Positions 48,502 to 60,712 are shown, numbered from the stretch's first letter. The stretch is 64,000 bases of DNA from Oscillatoria sp. FACHB-1407 (GCF_014697545.1 NZ_JACJSA010000006.1:186001-250000); one strand, 5' to 3'. The notes: a model not told the origin generated them from the sequence alone. Program-made: numbers and translations.

Positions 48502-51500
48502 TTAGCCAATCATTTTGTCTGAAGCGACTCCCAGAGATTTATTGTCGGTAGATTTGGGCTTCTGTCGAGAGAGTAAAAACACGGCTGTGACCATCAGGAG
48601 CACTAACAGAACGATCGCGATCGTTGTAATCCGGTTGTATGAGTCAAATTCCTCTGTTAATACTGACTCTGGCATCACTACGACCAGATTCCAGTCGAGA
48701 TTACGAATAGGATTAATGGCAACCCGATATTTCACCTCTGACTCTGAGTCTTCATGTTTAAAGATTTGTTGTGCCTTGATGTGTTCTAACGAAACTTGAT
48801 TCTTCCGAAAAACTTGACTGGCATATTGAGCAAGGGGGTTTTCAACCTCATCCAGTGTCACTAGATCGGGGATATCCCGTTCTGTTGAGGTAAAACCAAG
48901 ATCCCGAGGATCGCTCGATGCAATCAACTCACCTTTGGGAGTGATGATAAATAGTGCCCCAGGTTGCCCTTGTTGCAACCGTTCTAGCAAAACTGACAAT
49001 TGCCTGAGTTCGATCGCAATGCTAATCACTCCCAATAACTGATTTTGCTTCTGTACAGTCACAGAGGAGTCAATCCCAGGCGTTTGGGTCGAGGCGAACA
49101 TGTAGACATCCGTCCAGGTTTGATAACCCGGATTGCCGACAGCAGATCGATACCAGGGACGCTGAGGAGAGTAGTAGTTTTCGGGTGTGGAGAGCGTCTC
49201 TACGAACTCAAAGGTGTCGTCAACTCGACGATAGGATTCTACCGTGCGCGTTGCTCGTTGCGCTTGAGGATCGTAATCTCGGTTAATGATATTAATGTTG
49301 CCTTCCTGGGTGTGTTGTAGACCGAAATAATCCCCATTGGCAAAGCCAAATTGAATCCAGTTCAAATTGGGATGCGCTTTTGCCAGCGTCATGTAAAAGA
49401 TTTCCAGTTCTTCCTTATTGTTGAGATCAACCAGATCATCGGTAAATGCTTTTTGGATGATCTGTTGGGTTGATCCCACCTGGCTAAACAGCGTGCCAAT
49501 TTCACGGGAGATAGCGGGAACCGTGCTTTTGAGCCACAATTCTACTGCGCTATCGACCATTTTTTGGGCGACCAATCGTGCTCCGACCCATACCGTCGCG
49601 CCAACCACCACCGTTGCCCCCAGGACCACCCACCCTACCCGCACTATTTGTTGTGCTCGTGCTCCTGCCTGTGCCAGACGCTGATTGGCAGCTTCAACTT
49701 CGCGGCTTTTTCTGATGTAGTTTTGGTGGAGTTCCGTTGGTTCTGGTTGCTTGGTGTTGCTTTTGTCCAACCACTGCTCTGCCTCTGACAGATCGTCCCC
49801 CCGCAATAACAGGCTATCACTGCGTCCTTTGTTATCCCACTCGATCGCCCTGACCAAAAGCCAGGTGTGAGCTTTGAGGTGAGCCGCATCGGTGTCTAAC
49901 ACGCGCAGCAGGTCTTTGAAGTTAGACGAAAAATCACCATCTCGTCCGTTAAAGTCGAGCCACTGAACTTTGGCTAATTCAGGATGCAGATTGGCTGGGT
50001 TAATGGGGCGATGGAGGACTGTCACAAAGCGTTTATTGAGTTTGGCAGCGTATTCAACCTCATCAGCACAGTAGGGCGAGTTGATGGAACTGGGTGACAG
50101 AATGAAGAGGAAATGGTTTGCTGTTTCGATGCCGCGATAAATCTCCTGTTGAAAGTCAGTGCCTGAGGCGATGCTTTCCTGGTCAAACCAGGTGTTTTTG
50201 CCCTGCATTTGCAATGCCTCATTCAGTTGACGGGCAAACCCGGAATCGGCACGCGAGTAAGAGATAAAGACATCAACTGCGATGCCGGGGGGTTGTCGCT
50301 GGCTCTCAGCAATGAACTTTTCCTGGAGTGGGGTGCTGGGCGATCGCGGATGGTGTTTTGCCAGCTTAAGCCACGCCTCGGCATGGCGCAGGTTATAGCC
50401 CCGTAACAAAAAGGTGGGGTTGTAGTTGTGTCGCTCCCATTTGAATGCTTTGGTCAACAAGACCTTGTGGTCTTCGTGATAAGCGACATCCTGTCGTAGT
50501 GCCCGTAGCAGTTGGTTTTCGTCGTGTTGATAGTCGGTTTCTAACAGGTTGTCGGTGAGATCGATGTATTGCAGGTTGCGGAGTGTAGGGGGTAGCTGCT
50601 GGGGGTCGATCGCCTCCACTAAAATTGGCACAATTCGCTTGTTGAGTGACAAGGCGTAGTCAATTTCGAGTTGGCAGTAATAGGATGTGAGGGAACGCGG
50701 AGAGAGCAAATATACAATATTATTGGCTTCTTCAATTCCTCGTTTGATGGCGTTTTCAAAATCAACTCCGGTCTGAATATCGGTAGTGTTGATCCAGACG
50801 GTGAATGCCTCCCGCAGCAAACTGGAGCGAATCTTTTTGGCAATGTCGCGATCTTCTGTGGCATAGGACAAGAACACCTGAGTCATCAGGTTCTCACCGT
50901 TTTTGATGCTCTCAGTGATGAATTCGCAATGCAACTCAGTGGGAGTGCAGGGAGGTTGGGAGTCGGTGAAACGAGTTTTCAGCCAGGTTTCGGCGTGTTG
51001 ACGGTCTTCACCCACTAACAAGTATTGCGATCGCCGCTGATTTTCTTCCCACTCCAGTGCTTTCGCCAGGAATTGCGTGTGCTGATGCACATAGTCGTGG
51101 TGGCGATCGAAGATGGTCAGTAACCCCTTTAAAGATTCCTGAAAGTCATCTTGATTTTCCCGGAAGTAGACCCAGTTGATCTTCGAGATTTCGGGATGCA
51201 TATTGATGAAGCTGGAGTGTAACCCTTTGGCTTGATAGGTTTCCCAATCTGCATCGGTGCCTGTGGGGTTACGTTGTTGCCAGGTTTCACGGCTGATCTC
51301 GGCAACATGCATGAGAGGAATAATGCGCTTATTCCGTTTCAATGCGAGTTCGATTTCCAGGCGACAGTAGGGCGAATTGACGGAATGGGGCGAGATGATG
51401 AAGAGAAAGTTGTCAGCCCGATTGATGCCGTCGTCGATTTGTTTTTGATAGTCCACTCCTAATGGAATGTCATCAAAGTCAAACCAGACGGTTAGCCCTT

Positions 51501-51588
51501 GCTCTACTAAGTGATGGTGAAGCTGGGCAGCAAAAGCTTTGCTGTCTGCTCGACCATAGGAAATAAATGCATCCTGGAATCCTTGCAT
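48502..51588 (-). CDS. Transmembrane receptor with three TIR domains and an extracytoplasmic Cache sensor
   Basis: A 1028-residue protein. TIR1 (about 5-160) has FISYGRADS and YCRLEIE with Glu78. TIR2 (about 235-365) has FLSYATEDRD and YCQLEID with Glu308. TIR3 (about 438-565) has FISYSRADS and YCADEVE with Glu510. After each comes a helical block of the kind KALEWE...LL-G-D-x-x-AE-WL. A membrane segment (VGWVVLGATVVVGATVWVGA, 651-672) leads into a periplasmic double-Cache domain (IQFGFANGDYFGLQ, YYSPQRPWYRSAVGNPGY, WTDVY). A second membrane segment (IAIVLLVLLMVTAVFLLS) and a short tail follow. TIR domains in bacteria often degrade NAD+, and the glutamates are in the catalytic position. The architecture suggests ligand-gated NADase or nucleotide signalling, which is inferred. 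Confidence 0.88.
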   Translation of the reverse strand: MQGFQDAFISYGRADSKAFAAQLHHHLVEQGLTVWFDFDDIPLGVDYQKQIDDGINRADNFLFIISPHSVNSPYCRLEIELALKRNKRIIPLMHVAEISRETWQQRNPTGTDADWETYQAKGLHSSFINMHPEISKINWVYFRENQDDFQESLKGLLTIFDRHHDYVHQHTQFLAKALEWEENQRRSQYLLVGEDRQHAETWLKTRFTDSQPPCTPTELHCEFITESIKNGENLMTQVFLSYATEDRDIAKKIRSSLLREAFTVWINTTDIQTGVDFENAIKRGIEEANNIVYLLSPRSLTSYYCQLEIDYALSLNKRIVPILVEAIDPQQLPPTLRNLQYIDLTDNLLETDYQHDENQLLRALRQDVAYHEDHKVLLTKAFKWERHNYNPTFLLRGYNLRHAEAWLKLAKHHPRSPSTPLQEKFIAESQRQPPGIAVDVFISYSRADSGFARQLNEALQMQGKNTWFDQESIASGTDFQQEIYRGIETANHFLFILSPSSINSPYCADEVEYAAKLNKRFVTVLHRPINPANLHPELAKVQWLDFNGRDGDFSSNFKDLLRVLDTDAAHLKAHTWLLVRAIEWDNKGRSDSLLLRGDDLSEAEQWLDKSNTKQPEPTELHQNYIRKSREVEAANQRLAQAGARAQQIVRVGWVVLGATVVVGATVWVGARLVAQKMVDSAVELWLKSTVPAISREIGTLFSQVGSTQQIIQKAFTDDLVDLNNKEELEIFYMTLAKAHPNLNWIQFGFANGDYFGLQHTQEGNINIINRDYDPQAQRATRTVESYRRVDDTFEFVETLSTPENYYSPQRPWYRSAVGNPGYQTWTDVYMFASTQTPGIDSSVTVQKQNQLLGVISIAIELRQLSVLLERLQQGQPGALFIITPKGELIASSDPRDLGFTSTERDIPDLVTLDEVENPLAQYASQVFRKNQVSLEHIKAQQIFKHEDSESEVKYRVAINPIRNLDWNLVVVMPESVLTEEFDSYNRITTIAIVLLVLLMVTAVFLLSRQKPKSTDNKSLGVASDKMIG

Positions 51589-52413: not shown

Positions 52414-54546
52414 ATGCAATCTAAATTTCGAGTTCTAGAGCGTTCTAATACCTTACGTGCTAATTCTCTTCAATCCCATCGTTCTTCTCAATCAGCCTTA
52501 CCTCTCGATCTGTCCTCTGATCTCGGCACCTCACAACGCCATGCAAGAGGGTTTCGAGCCAGTGCGGCAAACCAGTTTTCATCTAGCAAGTCAAATCCTC
52601 GCGATCGCTCTGAAAGAGGCTTTTTAGAGACTTCAACGATAGTTGCTAACAACGTTAGCCATACATTACCAATATCTGATTTGGTTGTTTCAGATTTAGT
52701 TTTTAATGACCTGGTGTTTTTACCGTTAGCGGATAACTCGATGAGTGAAGCTAACAATTTAGGAACCCTTGGTAGTTCAGTCCGCTCTAATGGGTTTGTT
52801 GGTGGCACTGACTCACAAGACTATTTTCGGTTTAGTAATACAACCGCAGGACGGTTTAATTTATCACTCACAGGTATGTCTGCGGATGCAGATGTGCAAC
52901 TCTTAAATAGCAGTGGGGCGATCGTTGCGTCTTCATCGAGGGGTAGTACAGGAGATGAATCGATTAACCTTGCCTCGCTAAGTATTGGCGATTACTACGT
53001 TCGGGTTTATCAATTCAATGGCGACACCAACTACACGTTGAGGATGTCGAACACATTCCCCAGTAACCTATTGCCTGCTGAGACGAGTCTGGGCACGCTC
53101 AACGGTACGCGCGTTTTCAGTAATTCTGTAGGCAGTAGTGATACAGCTGATGTGTATCAGTTTAATCTGGCAGGGACAGCCAATCGCTTTAACATCACAC
53201 TGAGTGGCTTATCCAGTGATGCCGATGTCCGCCTAATTTGGGATGGCAACAGTAACGGCAGAATTGACACAGATGAAGTGTTGGGTCGATCTACGGCTGG
53301 TAGCCAAGCTTCTGAGTGGATTGGCACGCCCCTCAATGCTGGCAACTACTTCGTTCAGGTGTATCAGTTTAGCGGTGAGGCAAACTACAACCTCAGCGTT
53401 TCAACCGGAGACTGGTACAACGAACACCTCAGTGATGCGGGGGTGATTGGTCAGGCGCGTGCTCTCTATTGGACAGATGGTTCCCTCAGCCGCAATGACA
53501 TGATCTCCATGTTCCGTGAGGTGCAAGACCAGAGCAGTATTGATTCCACAGAATTGCAAGATCTGCGAAAGGTTGTGAATCCTTCGACGGGCTTCTCAAT
53601 GCCTGATTATGTGCGAAATTTGTCCAACAAAGTTGTAAATGGTGATCCGGCAAACCCTCGTTCTGGTATCGGCAACCTGTCTGCGGGGAGCAGTAGCAAC
53701 CAGATGGAGCGGTTGATTGGTAAGTGGTTCTTAGGGAGCGATCGCCCCACAGCCATTTCCTACAATCGCACCATAACCCACGGCTACCGTTATCTACAAG
53801 GCTCCCTCTTCCAAAACGGCATTAGCTTTGAAGATGTCGATCAAAACGATATTGGCGACTGCTATTTCATGGCAGCACTAGGCGCAGCGGCATTTCGATC
53901 GCCCAGTACGATTCAAAATATGTTTATCGATAATGGTGACGGCACCTTTACCGTGCGTTTCTATCGAGATGGTGTAGCGGATTACCTCACCGTCGATCGA
54001 TTTGTTCCCACAGATAGTTCGGGGAATGCGGTGTTTGCCGGATGGGGGGGTGGCGTCAACACCGAAGCTAACAATGAGTTGTGGGTTGCCCTCGCCGAAA
54101 AAGCCTATGCTCAACTCAATGAATCGGGCTGGATTGGTCAAGACAATACCAACTCCTACAACGGTTTAACGCTCTCAACAACGGCGGTATCCACGAATAG
54201 CGGCGGTATCAACGGCGGTTGGGCAGGCAATGGATTGCGCCATATCACCGGACGCAATACCGAAAATCGAGATGTTTCCTGGCGCGATTGGTGGAGTCTG
54301 TTTATCACCACCTCAAACGATCTCGATCGCATCATCAGTACCTTTAACGCAGGGCGCATGGTGACGCTGAGTACAAAAGACTCAGGCGTGGAATCGGGTG
54401 TTGTCGCGAATCACGTCTACACGATGGTGGGATATAACGCATCGACGCAGCGGTTCCGGCTCTATAACCCCTGGGGTAACACGGTTGAGCTAACTCGCAA
54501 CCAGATCGTCAATAACTTTGAGGATTGGGACTACACCACCACCTGA
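52414..54546 (+). CDS. Calpain-like cysteine protease with two PPC domains
   Basis: A 710-residue protein of the C2 (calpain) peptidase family. Residues 1-110 are polar and disordered. Two pre-peptidase C-terminal (PPC) domains follow at about 117-210 and 220-335 (GTDSQDYFRFS, GDYYVRVYQFNGDTNYTLR; DVYQFNLAG, GNYFVQVYQFSGEANYNLS). A linker precedes the catalytic domain (about 470-705). The active site is Cys483 in GDCYFMAALG, His667 in ANHVYTMVGY and Asn685 in LYNPWG. Calpains make limited cuts in proteins and in other systems act downstream of sensors. PPC domains usually mark exported proteases, but no signal peptide is visible, so its location is open. It is flanked by TIR genes on both sides. 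Confidence 0.88.
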   Translation: MQSKFRVLERSNTLRANSLQSHRSSQSALPLDLSSDLGTSQRHARGFRASAANQFSSSKSNPRDRSERGFLETSTIVANNVSHTLPISDLVVSDLVFNDLVFLPLADNSMSEANNLGTLGSSVRSNGFVGGTDSQDYFRFSNTTAGRFNLSLTGMSADADVQLLNSSGAIVASSSRGSTGDESINLASLSIGDYYVRVYQFNGDTNYTLRMSNTFPSNLLPAETSLGTLNGTRVFSNSVGSSDTADVYQFNLAGTANRFNITLSGLSSDADVRLIWDGNSNGRIDTDEVLGRSTAGSQASEWIGTPLNAGNYFVQVYQFSGEANYNLSVSTGDWYNEHLSDAGVIGQARALYWTDGSLSRNDMISMFREVQDQSSIDSTELQDLRKVVNPSTGFSMPDYVRNLSNKVVNGDPANPRSGIGNLSAGSSSNQMERLIGKWFLGSDRPTAISYNRTITHGYRYLQGSLFQNGISFEDVDQNDIGDCYFMAALGAAAFRSPSTIQNMFIDNGDGTFTVRFYRDGVADYLTVDRFVPTDSSGNAVFAGWGGGVNTEANNELWVALAEKAYAQLNESGWIGQDNTNSYNGLTLSTTAVSTNSGGINGGWAGNGLRHITGRNTENRDVSWRDWWSLFITTSNDLDRIISTFNAGRMVTLSTKDSGVESGVVANHVYTMVGYNASTQRFRLYNPWGNTVELTRNQIVNNFEDWDYTTT

Positions 54547-55218: not shown

Positions 55219-55470
55219 TTGAACGAGAGTTACTCTGATTCAAACGATTGCAGCAATTGTTTATATCTTTCTAGCTTTTGCTTAAACGAAACTTATACTT
55301 GCTTGAACGAGAGTTACTCTGATTCAAACGATTGCAGCAATTGTTTATATCTTTCTAGCTTTTGCTTAAACGAAACTTATACTTGTTTGAACGAGAGTTA
55401 CTTTCGTTTGAACGATTGCAGCTAATGCTTATATCTTTCTAGCTTTTGCTTAAACGGAGCTTATATATCA
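55219..55470. repeat. 84-bp tandem repeat, three copies
   Basis: Units start at 55219, 55303 and 55387 with TTGAACGAGAGTTAC. Copies 1 and 2 differ at about one base, while copy 3 is more diverged. The unit has no stop in one frame (84 is a multiple of 3), giving a 28-residue repeat, but the composition is not convincing as a gene. Its role is not known. Confidence 0.92.
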
Positions 55471-56252: not shown

Positions 56253-57812
56253 ATGAGTCAACAGACTAAGCCCGTCGAAGTTTTTATCTCCTACTCGCAC
56301 CGAGATGAAAAGTTGCGAGAAAGACTGGACTCCCATCTGTCGCTGTTGCGACGGCAGGAAGTAATTCAAGCGTGGCACGATCGCAAGATTACGGCAGGCT
56401 CCGAGTGGGCAGGGGCGATCGACGATAAGTTGAACTCGGCGGATATTATTCTGTTGTTGATCAGTGACCAGTTTCTTGCATCGGACTATTGCTACGGCAT
56501 CGAGATGCAACGGGCAATGGAGCGGCACGAAGCCAAAGAGGCGTGTGTCATTCCGATTATTCTCAAGCCTGTGGACTGGAGTAGTGCGCCCTTTGCCAAA
56601 TTGCAGGCATTTCCCAAGGATGCCAAGCCTGTTACTAAGTGGAACAATCGGGATGAGGCGTTTCTCAACATCGCCAAGGGGATTCGGGAAGCCGCAGAGA
56701 CAATTGCTGCCCGGCCGCAAAAGCCATCCCCTGAACCAGAGCCAGTTCCATCCCCAGATCTCTCGGAAGCCATCACCGTTATCCCGCCCGATCGCCTCGA
56801 CCTGCCGGAGGGTTCCGTTGGCTTAAACTCCCCTCTGTACGTGGAACGTCCGCCGATTGAGGCAAACTGTTATGGCGAGATTGTCAAACCGGGGGCACTG
56901 ATTCGCATCAAAGCTCCCCGACAGTGGGGCAAGACTTCCTTGATGCAGCGGATTTTGCAGCGATCGCGCGAGCATGGACACCGCACCGTCTGCCTCAACC
57001 TGCAACTGGTGGATGGCGACTCCCTCACCAGCATCGATCGCCTGTTGCAGTGGCTCTGTGCCAGTGTCGCCAATGAGCTAAATCTGGATGACCGTCTCTC
57101 GGACGTGTGGAAGCCGATGCTGGGCAGCAAGAGCAACTGCACCAACTATTTCCAACGCTACCTGTTGCCGACGATTCAGCAACCGCTGACCCTGGGACTG
57201 GATGAGGTGGATCAGGTGTTTCAACATCTGGATGTGGCGCAGGACTTTTTTGGCTTGCTGCGGGCGTGGCACGAGATGAGCAAAAACGACCCCACCTGGC
57301 AGCGGTTAGGACTGGTGATTGCCCACTCCAGGGAGGTCTACATTCCCTTGAATGTGGAGCACTCGCCGTTTAATGTGGGGTTGCCGACGGAGTTGCCGGA
57401 GTTCACCTCCCAACAGGTGATCCATCTGGTGCAGCGGCACGGCTTGAGATGGTCAGAGCCGCAGATCGCCCAACTGCTTGAGATGGTGTCGGGGCATCCC
57501 TATCTGGTGCGAAAGGCATTGTATGAGATGGCACGAGGCATGACGCTGGAACGCTTTTTGCAAACGGCTCCCACCGAAGCAGGACTGTACGGGGATCACC
57601 TGCGGCGACACCTGGAGAACCTGCACAGCGACCCGCAACTGGCAACGGCCATGAAGCAGGTGGTGAGCACACCGGGAGCCGTCGGACTGGAGCCAAAGCT
57701 GGGCTTTCGGCTGCACAGTATGGGCTTAGTGCGCTTGCAGGATGATGAAGTGATTGCCCTGTGTCACCTCTATCGCCTGTACTTCGCGAAACGGTTGGGG
57801 GGACGGGCATGA
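56253..57812 (+). CDS. TIR-AAA ATPase fusion
   Basis: A 519-residue protein. The N-terminal TIR domain (about 7-140) has [12 protein letters not shown] and [16 protein letters not shown] with Glu84 in the catalytic position. A proline/glutamate linker (about 157-180) follows, then a P-loop ATPase of the AAA-like type ([16 protein letters not shown], 220-234; Walker B-like [12 protein letters not shown], 312-323; a sensor-like [13 protein letters not shown]). The winged helical end is [23 protein letters not shown] domains in bacteria use NAD+ as substrate and the ATPase is expected to switch it on. The stop overlaps the next gene's start by four bases (ATGA), so the two are translationally coupled. 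Confidence 0.88.
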
Positions 57813-60673
57813 ACAACCACTCGACCCCATACGAATATCGGGTTGGGGGCAGTCTGCCCGTGGATGCCCCCAGCTATGTCGAACGGCAGGCAGACCAGGA
57901 CTTGTACACCGCCCTGCAAGCAGGGGAATTTTGCTATGTGCTGAACTCGCGCCAGATGGGCAAGTCGAGCTTGCGGGTGCGAACGATGCGACGGTTGCAG
58001 CAGGAGGGCTTTGCCTGCGCCGACATCGATATTACGGGAATTGGTACGAAGAACATCACCGACGAGCAGTGGTATGGCGGGTTGATCGACACACTGATCC
58101 ACAAGCTGCACCTGACCCACATCGACCTGGTGGAGTGGTGGGAGCAGGAACGGTTGCTCTCCCCGGTGCAGAAATTTGGCAAGTTTATTGATGCCGTCCT
58201 CCTCAGCGACATTGCCCAACCGATCGCCCTCTTTATTGACGAGATCGACAGTATCTTTAAGCTCGACTTTAAGGACGATTTCTTTGCCCTGATCCGTTCC
58301 TTCTATAATCGGCGGGTGGATGATCCCCGCTATCAACGGCTATCGTTTGTCCTCTTAGGGGTTGCCACTCCCTCGGATCTGATTGCCGACAAGAGCCGCA
58401 CCCAGTTCAACATTGGCAGAGCGATCGCCCTCAACGGTTTCCAACCCCACGAAGTCGCACCCCTGGCACCTGGACTGGCGGCAAAAACCACCCATCCCCA
58501 AGCCGTATTAGCCGCGATTTTAGAATGGACGGGGGGACAACCCTTCCTCACCCAAAAACTCTGTCAACTGGTGCTGACCTTACCGGACAGCATTCCCCCC
58601 GATGAGGAAGCCGCTGTTGTGGCTCAACTCGTGCGCGATCGCCTCATCACCAACTGGGAATCGCAGGACGAACCTGTGCATTTGCGAACCATTCGCGATC
58701 GCCTGCGTGCCAGCGAGCAACGCACCGGACAACTGCTCGGACTCTATCAGCAGATTTTGCAACAGGGCGAAATTACCGCTGATGGCAGCGAAGAACAGAT
58801 GGAACTGCGCCTCTCCGGTCTGGTGGTCGAACAGCACCAAAGACTCAAGCTCTATAACCCCATCTATGCAGCGGTGTTTGATGCTGCTTGGGTGGAAGAG
58901 GCGCTGGCAAAACTGCGCCCCTATGCCGAAGCCATTAGCATCTGGCTTGCCTCAGACCGCACCGACGAGTCACGCCTGTTGCGCGGTCAGGCATTGCAGG
59001 AAGCCGTGGAGTGGTCGCAGGGCAAAAACCTGAGCCAGGACGACAACGACTTCTTGAGAGCCAGCCAAGAACTCGCCACCCGCGACATGGAAGCGGCACT
59101 CGCCCAGGAAACCGAAGCCAAGCAGATCTTAGAAGCCGCTACCCGCAAAGCCAATCGCCGCAATCGCATTAGTTTAGAGATTTTGGCAATCTCACTCCTG
59201 GTTGCAGCGGGAGCTGCACTCTGGTCATTTCGAGAACTGGACATTGTAGAAAATCGCGCCACCCAACTTTCTGCTGAAGCCGATGCCACCGAAGCCCGAC
59301 TCACAACTGCCCTACAGAACGAAGCCGAGGCAGTCGCAGAACTGAGGCGAGTCACCGCAGAGCGAGAAACCGCTGAACAAGAAACAGAAAAAGCTCAAGA
59401 CCAACTAGAGCGAATCACCGCACGGGCAGAACGCGAACGCGCCACCGCTCAACAACAACTGCAAGCCACCACCCGCCAACTCAACGCCACCAAAACCGAT
59501 CTGACAAACGCCAACCGACAACGACAGACCATCGAAGCCCAAGCCCGACAAGCCGAAGATCGCTTAGCCACCACCACCGCCCGTGCCGACGAAGCCACCG
59601 AGCGTCTGGAGGAAGCCTCCGCTCGTGCGGAAGAAGCCGAACGCCGCACCGGAGAAGCGGTCGCTGCCATGAGTCAGGGCAGAGAAATCTTTGACACCAT
59701 CATCCCCCGGTTAGAAGGTGCTGGAACCTCACTATTTTCCACTGACGACATCAGCACCATCAACGAAGCCTATCAACGCTTTTTAGATGCTGCCGGAGGC
59801 GTAATTGGCGAACAATCCGTTGAAACCCAAAGCCTTTATGGATTAGGTGTTGCTCTCTTAGTACGAGGACGTTACCCCGAAGCATTGGAGACGTATGAAC
59901 AGGCTCTCAAAGGGTTTCAAGCTCAGGGAAATCGCCAGTCAGAAGGCACTACCCTCAATGACATTGGAACGGTTTATGCTTATCAGGGGCAATACGCGAA
60001 AGCACTGGAGTATTACCAACAAGCTCTTGCCATTCGGCGGGAGGTGGGCGATCGCTCTGGTGAAGGAGTTAGTTTGGGTAGTATCGCTTTTGTTTATCAA
60101 AATCAAGGACAGTATTTGCAGGCACTCAACTATTACCAACAAGCTCTTGCCATTGCTCGTGAAGTGGGCGATCGCCGGGGTGAAGGAGTCACCCTCAACA
60201 ACATTGGAGAAATCTATCGCAATCAAGGGCAATACCCGCAGGCACTCGACTATTATCAACAATCTCTTGCTATCACTCAAGAAGTCGGCGATCGCCGTGG
60301 TGAAGGAGTCACCCTCAGCAACATCGGCGGAATTTATTGGGAGCAGAGGCAGTATTCACAGGCTTTAGACTATTACCAACAAGCTCTTGCCATTGCTCGT
60401 GAAGTGGGCGATCGCCTTGGCGAAGGAGTCACCCTCAACAACATTGGCAGTGTTTACGCTAATCAACAACAATATGAGCAGGCATTAAGTTATCTGGAAC
60501 AGGCACTTGCTATCCGTCGTGAGGTAGGCGATCGACAGGGTGAGGGGTTTACGCTGGGTTGGTTAAATACGGTTTATCGGGGATTGGGTCAACCCGATCG
60601 AGCGCAGGAGTTTCAAGCGCAGTGTGTGGCGATTCGAGAAGAGATTGGGGCACCGATCGGGTGTGGTGAGTAA
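57809..60673 (+). CDS. AAA-like ATPase with a membrane segment, coiled coil and TPR repeats
   Basis: A 954-residue protein starting at the ATG at 57809, inside the last codons of the TIR-AAA gene. A start at 57761 would lie within that gene and is rejected. Residues 1-340 form an AAA-like ATPase (P-loop [13 protein letters not shown] at about 46-58; [10 protein letters not shown] Walker B). Then a helical block, one membrane segment (about 454-478, [15 protein letters not shown]), a long coiled coil (about 485-635, Gln/Ala/Glu-rich), and TPR repeats to the end (A[17 protein letters not shown]). The TPR units are almost identical. It probably senses a signal at the membrane and works with the upstream TIR-AAA protein. 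Confidence 0.88.
59925..60545 (+). repeat. 120-bp tandem repeat encoding TPR units
   Basis: Inside the AAA-TPR gene the word GTGGGCGATCGC (or one base off) recurs at 60044, 60164, 60284, 60404 and 60524, exactly every 120 bp. Each unit is 40 codons, one TPR pair. High base identity between units points to recent expansion. Confidence 0.9.
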
Positions 60674-60679
60674 GGGTTT

Positions 60680-60712
60680 AGATCTGCGACTTCTTGAAGA
60701 AGTCGCAGATCT
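60680..60712. terminator. Near-perfect palindrome after the AAA-TPR gene
   Basis: AGATCTGCGACTTCTT and its exact complement flank a single G, 7 bp beyond the stop. It lacks a T-run, so it may be a REP-like palindrome rather than a classical terminator. It sits just ahead of a RAYT remnant. Confidence 0.7.

Follow-up and report, generated by a model that had tools for sequence, protein, structure and literature searches.

Overlapping TIR-AAA_35 and AAA_35-TPR genes of Oscillatoria sp. FACHB-1407 belong to a widespread, co-evolving two-gene system with a predicted STAND fold

The window analysed here is a stretch of 64,000 nucleotides from the cyanobacterium Oscillatoria sp. FACHB-1407 (GCF_014697545.1, NZ_JACJSA010000006.1:186001-250000), in which two overlapping open reading frames, genes A and B, lie on the plus strand at 56253-60673. 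Both encode a domain of the Pfam family AAA_35 (PF14516), passing its curated cut-off of 27 bits with 457 bits in A and 119 bits in B; the domain is preceded in A by a TIR domain and followed in B by a predicted transmembrane helix, a coiled coil and an array of TPR repeats. Our analysis places the pair in a modular, co-evolving and widespread two-gene STAND system, which we have not found described as such in the open-licence literature. A preliminary description of the locus, made from its sequence, had proposed a coupled defence or death module, and the observations on which it was based hold: the stop codon of A and the start codon of B share an ATGA at 57809-57812, the two quoted P-loops (PRQWGKTSL and SRQMGKSSL) are both present, the glutamate at the active position of the TIR domain is Glu84, and B has a hydrophobic segment at residues 454-472 as well as repeats (TPR_12, E 4e-63). 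The features of the locus, in window coordinates, are as follows:

56253..57812, plus strand: gene A, TIR-AAA_35, 519 amino acids (open reading frame; Pfam TIR_2 and AAA_35), the proposed effector or executor subunit
56280..56606, plus strand: TIR domain of A, residues 10-118 (PF13676, TIR_2, E 1.1e-15; PADLOC ThsB-type TIR profile, 212 bits; nearest solved TIR, Cat1)
56502..56504, plus strand: codon of Glu84, the predicted catalytic glutamate of the TIR domain (conservation; alignment with Cat1 E74)
56802..57788, plus strand: A-type AAA_35 STAND domain with winged helix, predicted, residues 184-512 (PF14516, 457 bits, E 3e-137)
56913..56942, plus strand: Walker A of A, P-loop PRQWGKTSL (translation)
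57192..57212, plus strand: Walker B of A, LGLDEVD, intact (translation)
57809..57812, plus strand: ATGA stop/start overlap coupling A and B (sequence)
57809..60673, plus strand: gene B, AAA_35-transmembrane-coiled-coil-TPR, 954 amino acids, ATG at 57809 (open reading frame; Pfam), the proposed sensor subunit
57848..58879, plus strand: B-type AAA_35 STAND domain, predicted, residues 14-357 (PF14516, 119 bits, E 3e-34)
57944..57973, plus strand: Walker A of B, P-loop SRQMGKSSL (motif kept across paired B)
59168..59224, plus strand: predicted transmembrane helix of B, residues 454-472 (sole strong hydrophobic segment, KD-19 mean 2.07)
59240..59728, plus strand: coiled-coil region of B, about residues 478-640, end approximate (long modelled helix to residue 546; weak SMC-like profile matches)
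59834..60628, plus strand: TPR array of B, about residues 676-940 (TPR_12, E 3.9e-63, and other TPR models)

Genes of both types recur in the Oscillatoria genome, which has 25 PF14516 matches: B follows nine of the 12 A genes and a tenth A and B are divergently oriented, giving ten pairs. Profiles built from the A and B domains of this genome, when applied to 202 AAA_35 open reading frames from 119 loci, split all of them, with a margin of at least 69 bits and medians of 400-500 bits. A and B are two cleanly separable paralogous subfamilies of PF14516, which refines the preliminary statement that both proteins contain the same type of P-loop ATPase: both are indeed AAA_35, each of its own subfamily and with a predicted STAND fold (see below). 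The 113 A genes of 40 cyanobacterial genomes include 45 that are followed immediately by a B gene in the same orientation, where chance would give about 0.1; adjacency of the homologues, on which the preliminary description had staked its proposal, is thus far from rare. B lies upstream of three more of the 113 A genes and beside nine on the opposite strand, which brings the number with an adjacent B in any orientation to 57. Neighbours on the same strand are ordered A then B in 45 of 48 cases. Of the 45 downstream pairs, 21 overlap or are separated by 30 nucleotides or less.

The strongest evidence for pairing is partner-specific co-evolution. In a mirror-tree comparison of 53 adjacent pairs, the distance matrices of A and B correlate with r=0.744 (r=0.655 on 41 non-redundant pairs), as against a mean r of 0.42 (highest value 0.68) over 5000 trials in which partners were shuffled within genomes only (p=0.0002), a procedure that preserves the species tree. 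Each A probably works with its own B, and A-B is supported as a recurrent, co-evolving functional pair. One could suppose instead that A and B are neighbours through co-regulation or duplication only, each forming an independent STAND homo-oligomer; the two are paralogous, so that tandem duplication could account for their proximity, and some A and some B genes occur alone. We regard this as improbable, since the co-evolution of partners persists under within-genome shuffling, the A-then-B order recurs in nearly all same-strand pairs, and A and B form separate subfamilies, so that the pairs are not recent duplicates. Tandem duplication as the origin of the pair was rejected because profiles separate A from B.

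No solved relative of AAA_35 turned up by sequence search, and the Pfam NTPase models that match A or B at E<=1 are AAA_35, AAA_22 and AAA_14 only. AlphaFold models of the AAA_35 domains reach a predicted local distance difference test score (pLDDT) of about 90 over most of the domain in A and mostly 80-96 in B, and their structural matches cover about 280-315 residues. The A domain aligns (VIA-align 2) with 2qen at Z 21.1 (root-mean-square deviation, rmsd, 4.0 over 309 residues), with the TIR-NLR RPP1 at Z 17.1 (rmsd 4.3, 286 residues), with WRR4A at Z 16.8 (rmsd 4.2, 282 residues) and with CED-4 at Z 16.6 (rmsd 4.7, 290 residues); 2fna is also among its matches in the range of Z 16.8-21.1. 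The B domain aligns with 2fna at Z 18.9 (rmsd 4.8, 316 residues), with RPP1 at Z 16.1 and with CED-4 at Z 15.1. Both 2qen and 2fna are archaeal STAND-like ATPases, and Foldseek matches of the models include Avs3, Avs4 and Avs5. Because the models match STAND structures, AAA_35 is predicted to be a STAND-type NTPase with a P-loop core of the ORC/Cdc6-STAND type, followed by helical and winged-helix domains at its C-terminal side.

The nucleotide-binding motifs are kept unequally by the two subfamilies. Paired B proteins conserve the Walker A lysine and the Walker B glutamate in 53 of 53 cases and the Walker B aspartate in 52, whereas paired A proteins conserve the Walker A lysine in 53 of 53, the Walker B aspartate in 34 and the Walker B glutamate in 33. 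More than one third of paired A proteins have lost the Walker B aspartate or glutamate; in the window both A and B are intact. Since the motifs of B are kept and Walker B of A is often eroded, B looks like an obligate nucleotide switch and A like its follower.

The nearest solved structure to the TIR domain of A is Cat1 (E 3e-10 in a family profile search), whose active-site residues are S7, D33, S68 and E74 (PMC12162218). Residues S13, D43, S77 and E84 of the window TIR align with these four, Glu84 being offset by one residue from E74, and all four are invariant among the six closest TIR-AAA_35 proteins. Of 21 wider TIR homologues, 17 also have Glu84; the four that lack it are three second copies of tandem TIRs and one further homologue. 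NAD+ cleavage by the TIR of A is likely, because the Cat1 active-site residues are matched and are invariant in the closest relatives. Five further TIRs of the same subfamily occur in the Oscillatoria genome (loci L069-L073), on differing architectures that include TIR-NTPase-TPR; four of them are 54-62% identical to the window TIR, and the fifth match (43%) runs past the TIR. Such differences of architecture point to TIR shuffling inside a single genome. It might be argued that the TIR of A has a structural role, in oligomerisation or as an adaptor, and is not an NADase, given the one-residue offset of the glutamate relative to Cat1 and the divergence of related TIR-like A proteins of the FISYRS type. 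The invariance of the four residues aligned to the Cat1 active site and the recurrence of close TIR relatives on other architectures of the same genome make this a poor prospect.

Effectors on A and sensors on B are exchangeable. A Pfam survey of the N-termini of 50 paired A proteins found TIR in nine, CHAT in nine and HTH in nine or more, together with single cases of EAD4, a trypsin-like peptidase and a guanylate cyclase; neither GT4 nor HEPN was among the families matched in these N-termini. A proteins without an N-terminal extension have a C-terminal GGDEF or TIR instead, and kinases are found at the N-terminus of one unpaired A in the survey and, by motif, at several loci with B downstream. 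When effector labels, given by motif rules, are mapped on a tree of 111 A domains, 34 changes are required (minimum 9, shuffled 64), and the A of the window groups with six CHAT proteins, a second TIR protein and one with a C-terminal TIR in a supported clade. This mixing of CHAT and TIR in one clade indicates effector exchange within a single STAND lineage. With labels again given by motif rules, pairing is commoner among A proteins that have a recognised effector (24 of 34) than among those with HTH only or an unclassified N-terminus (25 of 68; Fisher p=0.0016). The C-termini of B contain TPR, WD40, GAF, FHA or PAS domains, and a hydrophobic segment comparable to that of the window B follows the STAND domain in 38 of 51 paired B proteins. 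One B, on a plasmid of Nostoc sp. ATCC 53789 (L283, 11058-15386), ends in an N-acetylmuramoyl-L-alanine amidase after WD40, an unusual sensor tail.

Within the Cyanobacteria, strong A-type domains occur chiefly in the class to which the window belongs, and their presence is patchy: one genome has no matches in a genus in which others have 11 and 14. Outside the Cyanobacteria two strong A genes were found, each with B directly after it, one on an Abditibacteriota plasmid and the other in one genome of the Ktedonosporobacter phylum (Chloroflexota). In other phyla AAA_35 exceeds its cut-off, mostly weakly, in 8 of 201 genomes of the Ktedonosporobacter phylum, in 4 of 200 of the Methylobacterium phylum and in 1 of 198 of the phylum of a Bacteroidetes metagenome-assembled genome. 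The phage records searched contain no match to the pair.

Some plasmid pairs adjoin restriction, NACHT or Trypco1 genes. A plasmid of Nostoc sp. TCL26-01 has two pairs with a NACHT neighbour; one of Nostoc HK-01 has two pairs in an annotated stretch near restriction genes, and three A-B runs in the record as a whole; and that of Nostoc ATCC 53789 has a Trypco1 gene beside genes for a trypsin-TIR-AAA_35 protein and an AAA_35-WD40-amidase protein, with Tn3 and ParDE genes nearby. On the TCL26-01 plasmid (L281) the NACHT protein and two A-type proteins share the N-terminal sequence NSQFGGGLINAxxVNAGxIGGDxYNIHFG, perhaps a common adaptor.

The neighbours of the pair in the window are mostly housekeeping genes. 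The exception, about 5 kb 5' of the pair on the opposite strand (48505-51588, minus strand), encodes a protein of 1028 residues that combines three TIR_2 domains with a dCache_1 sensor domain. A calpain-family protease (Peptidase_C2) with two pre-peptidase C-terminal domains is encoded at 52414-54546. Within a 1.2-kb region 5' of the pair, an 84-bp unit is repeated 2.9 times in tandem (93% match) at 55219-55465, and directly 3' of the stop codon of B lies a perfect palindrome, GCGACTTCTTGAAGAAGTCGC, at 60686-60706, whose pattern occurs at five places in the genome.

We consider it probable that A and B make up a two-gene STAND system, a bacterial counterpart of paired NLRs, with B as the membrane-anchored sensor and A as the executor within a mixed oligomer. 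The preliminary description had proposed the same roles and likewise mixed oligomers; the effector position of A, the sensor position of B with its membrane anchor and the predicted STAND folds make this the best reading. Starting from the observed gene pairing, A/B split, co-evolution, effector and sensor swapping and conservation of NADase residues, and from the predicted STAND fold, we infer a membrane topology, a hetero-oligomer, a trigger, an NADase activity and a protective role that would fit together as follows. At rest, A and B would both be ADP-bound. Binding of a trigger to the TPR array of B, or loss of an inhibitor from it, would cause B to exchange its nucleotide and to nucleate a mixed oligomer with A by way of their paralogous STAND domains. 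This oligomer would gather the TIR domains of A, so that a composite NADase site is completed with Glu84, and its output, either NAD+ depletion or a cyclic ADP-ribose signal, would bring about arrest or death of the cell or filament segment. More tentatively, the scheme may extend to a widespread paired-NLR system, in which a membrane sensor STAND and an executor STAND form an obligate hetero-oligomer with independently exchangeable effector and sensor domains, yielding a combinatorial set of about ten intracellular immune or death receptors per large cyanobacterial genome.

As to what the pair is for, its effector repertoire, EAD4, the Trypco1 gene beside a plasmid pair and carriage on plasmids fit conflict systems; Kaur et al. 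2020 and 2021 list the same effectors for the conflict systems that they describe. Defence, as put forward in the preliminary description, is supported in part only; as to placement near known defence genes, some of the plasmid pairs lie beside restriction, NACHT or Trypco1 genes, as described above. Several observations weigh against a defensive, obligately paired system. PADLOC matched two proteins (a raw rate) among 98 neighbours of 24 effector-bearing chromosomal pairs, both with PD-T4-6/mads/MkoA-type models and with one further model described as a kinase; at this rate the chromosomal pairs show no recognisable defence-island neighbourhood. Many A N-termini are HTH domains, which makes a transcriptional output plausible for part of the family. 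No B lies within flanks of about 7 kb for 37 of the 113 A genes, and therefore some act alone or with a distant B. In addition, the TIR half of the AlphaFold model of A is unreliable, the joint TIR and AAA alignment being misaligned.

The main rival to a defence role is signalling or cell fate: the pair would be a two-component STAND module for general signalling in multicellular cyanobacteria, concerned with stress, cell fate or transcription and not primarily anti-phage, with the TIR making a nucleotide signal. This would suit the HTH or C-terminal GGDEF on many A proteins, the GAF, FHA and PAS-type input domains of B, which are typical of endogenous signalling, the chromosomal pairs without defence-island context and the presence of ten pairs in a single genome. 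It sits less well with an effector set (TIR, CHAT, trypsin, EAD4) that matches described conflict systems, with Trypco1 adjoining a plasmid pair, with plasmid carriage and with the patchy presence within one genus (0 versus 11 and 14), and we think it rather unlikely. The paired sensor and executor, which we prefer, would provide an annotation and a testable mechanism for a large family now named only 'AAA-like domain-containing protein', and the ten pairs of the Oscillatoria genome, with their different outputs, form a natural set in which to test cognate specificity and domain swapping.

In the open-licence literature the single relevant paper to mention AAA_35 treats it as an accessory domain of sigma factors, and nSTAND2 is the only paired bacterial STAND system that we found described there, a description in subscription journals being possible. 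Among known TIR systems, Thoeris ThsB and Cat1 share with A the matching NADase residues, and the 212-bit match to the ThsB-type PADLOC profile had suggested Thoeris. This was rejected because no ThsA model matched among the neighbouring window proteins scanned; moreover, A has no CARF domain, and its activation would presumably come from the STAND domain in cis. The MoxR-vWA ternary system (VMAP, iSTAND; Kaur et al. 2020, PMC7159879) shares TIR, trypsin, EAD4 and Trypco1 with the pairs, but it has three components in place of two STAND proteins, and it was rejected as no MoxR or vWA was found among the window genes scanned or the annotated genes beside plasmid pairs.

The closest published concept is the nSTAND2 two-gene operon (Kaur et al. 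2021, eLife 70394, PMC8195603), in which the effectors are reported to be most commonly GT4 or HEPN and one partner to be inactive. In both cases two adjacent genes each have a STAND module as the constant core, a hetero-multimer is predicted, and NTPase motifs tend to erode in the partner with the variable effectors (A in the present case, in more than one third of pairs). In contrast to nSTAND2, the Walker A lysine is intact in both partners of 53 of 53 pairs and Walker B is intact in the A of the window, the effectors are mainly TIR, CHAT, HTH and GGDEF, the domain is PF14516, and B has a transmembrane helix, a coiled coil and sensor repeats. The nSTAND2 sequence family lies near CR-ATPase, DAP3 and RNA12, and the pair was compared with it on its published description. 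Because motifs and effectors differ, the pair is not filed as nSTAND2.

Described bacterial STAND immune proteins are mostly single-chain, with effector, switch and sensor together. This applies to the antiphage Avs and bNACHT proteins, which resemble the pair in predicted STAND fold (Avs3, Avs4 and Avs5 were matched) and in the logic of effector, STAND and sensor; what one polypeptide does there is split here over two paralogous STAND proteins. The plant paired NLRs (CHS3-CSA1, PMC11298796) and NAIP/NLRC4 are likewise linked, paralogous STAND pairs with a sensor and an executor, a TIR output and a predicted oligomer. The NTPase part of the plant TIR-NLRs RPP1 and WRR4A is matched by the A and B models. 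The pair differs from plant paired NLRs in having AAA_35 and not NB-ARC, an A-then-B operon with overlap, and a TPR or WD40 sensor with a transmembrane anchor in place of LRR. RRS1-RPS4 is another plant paired NLR. If our reading is correct, linked and co-evolving STAND paralogues that divide effector and sensor between them would mean that the solution embodied in plant paired receptors is also present in bacteria.

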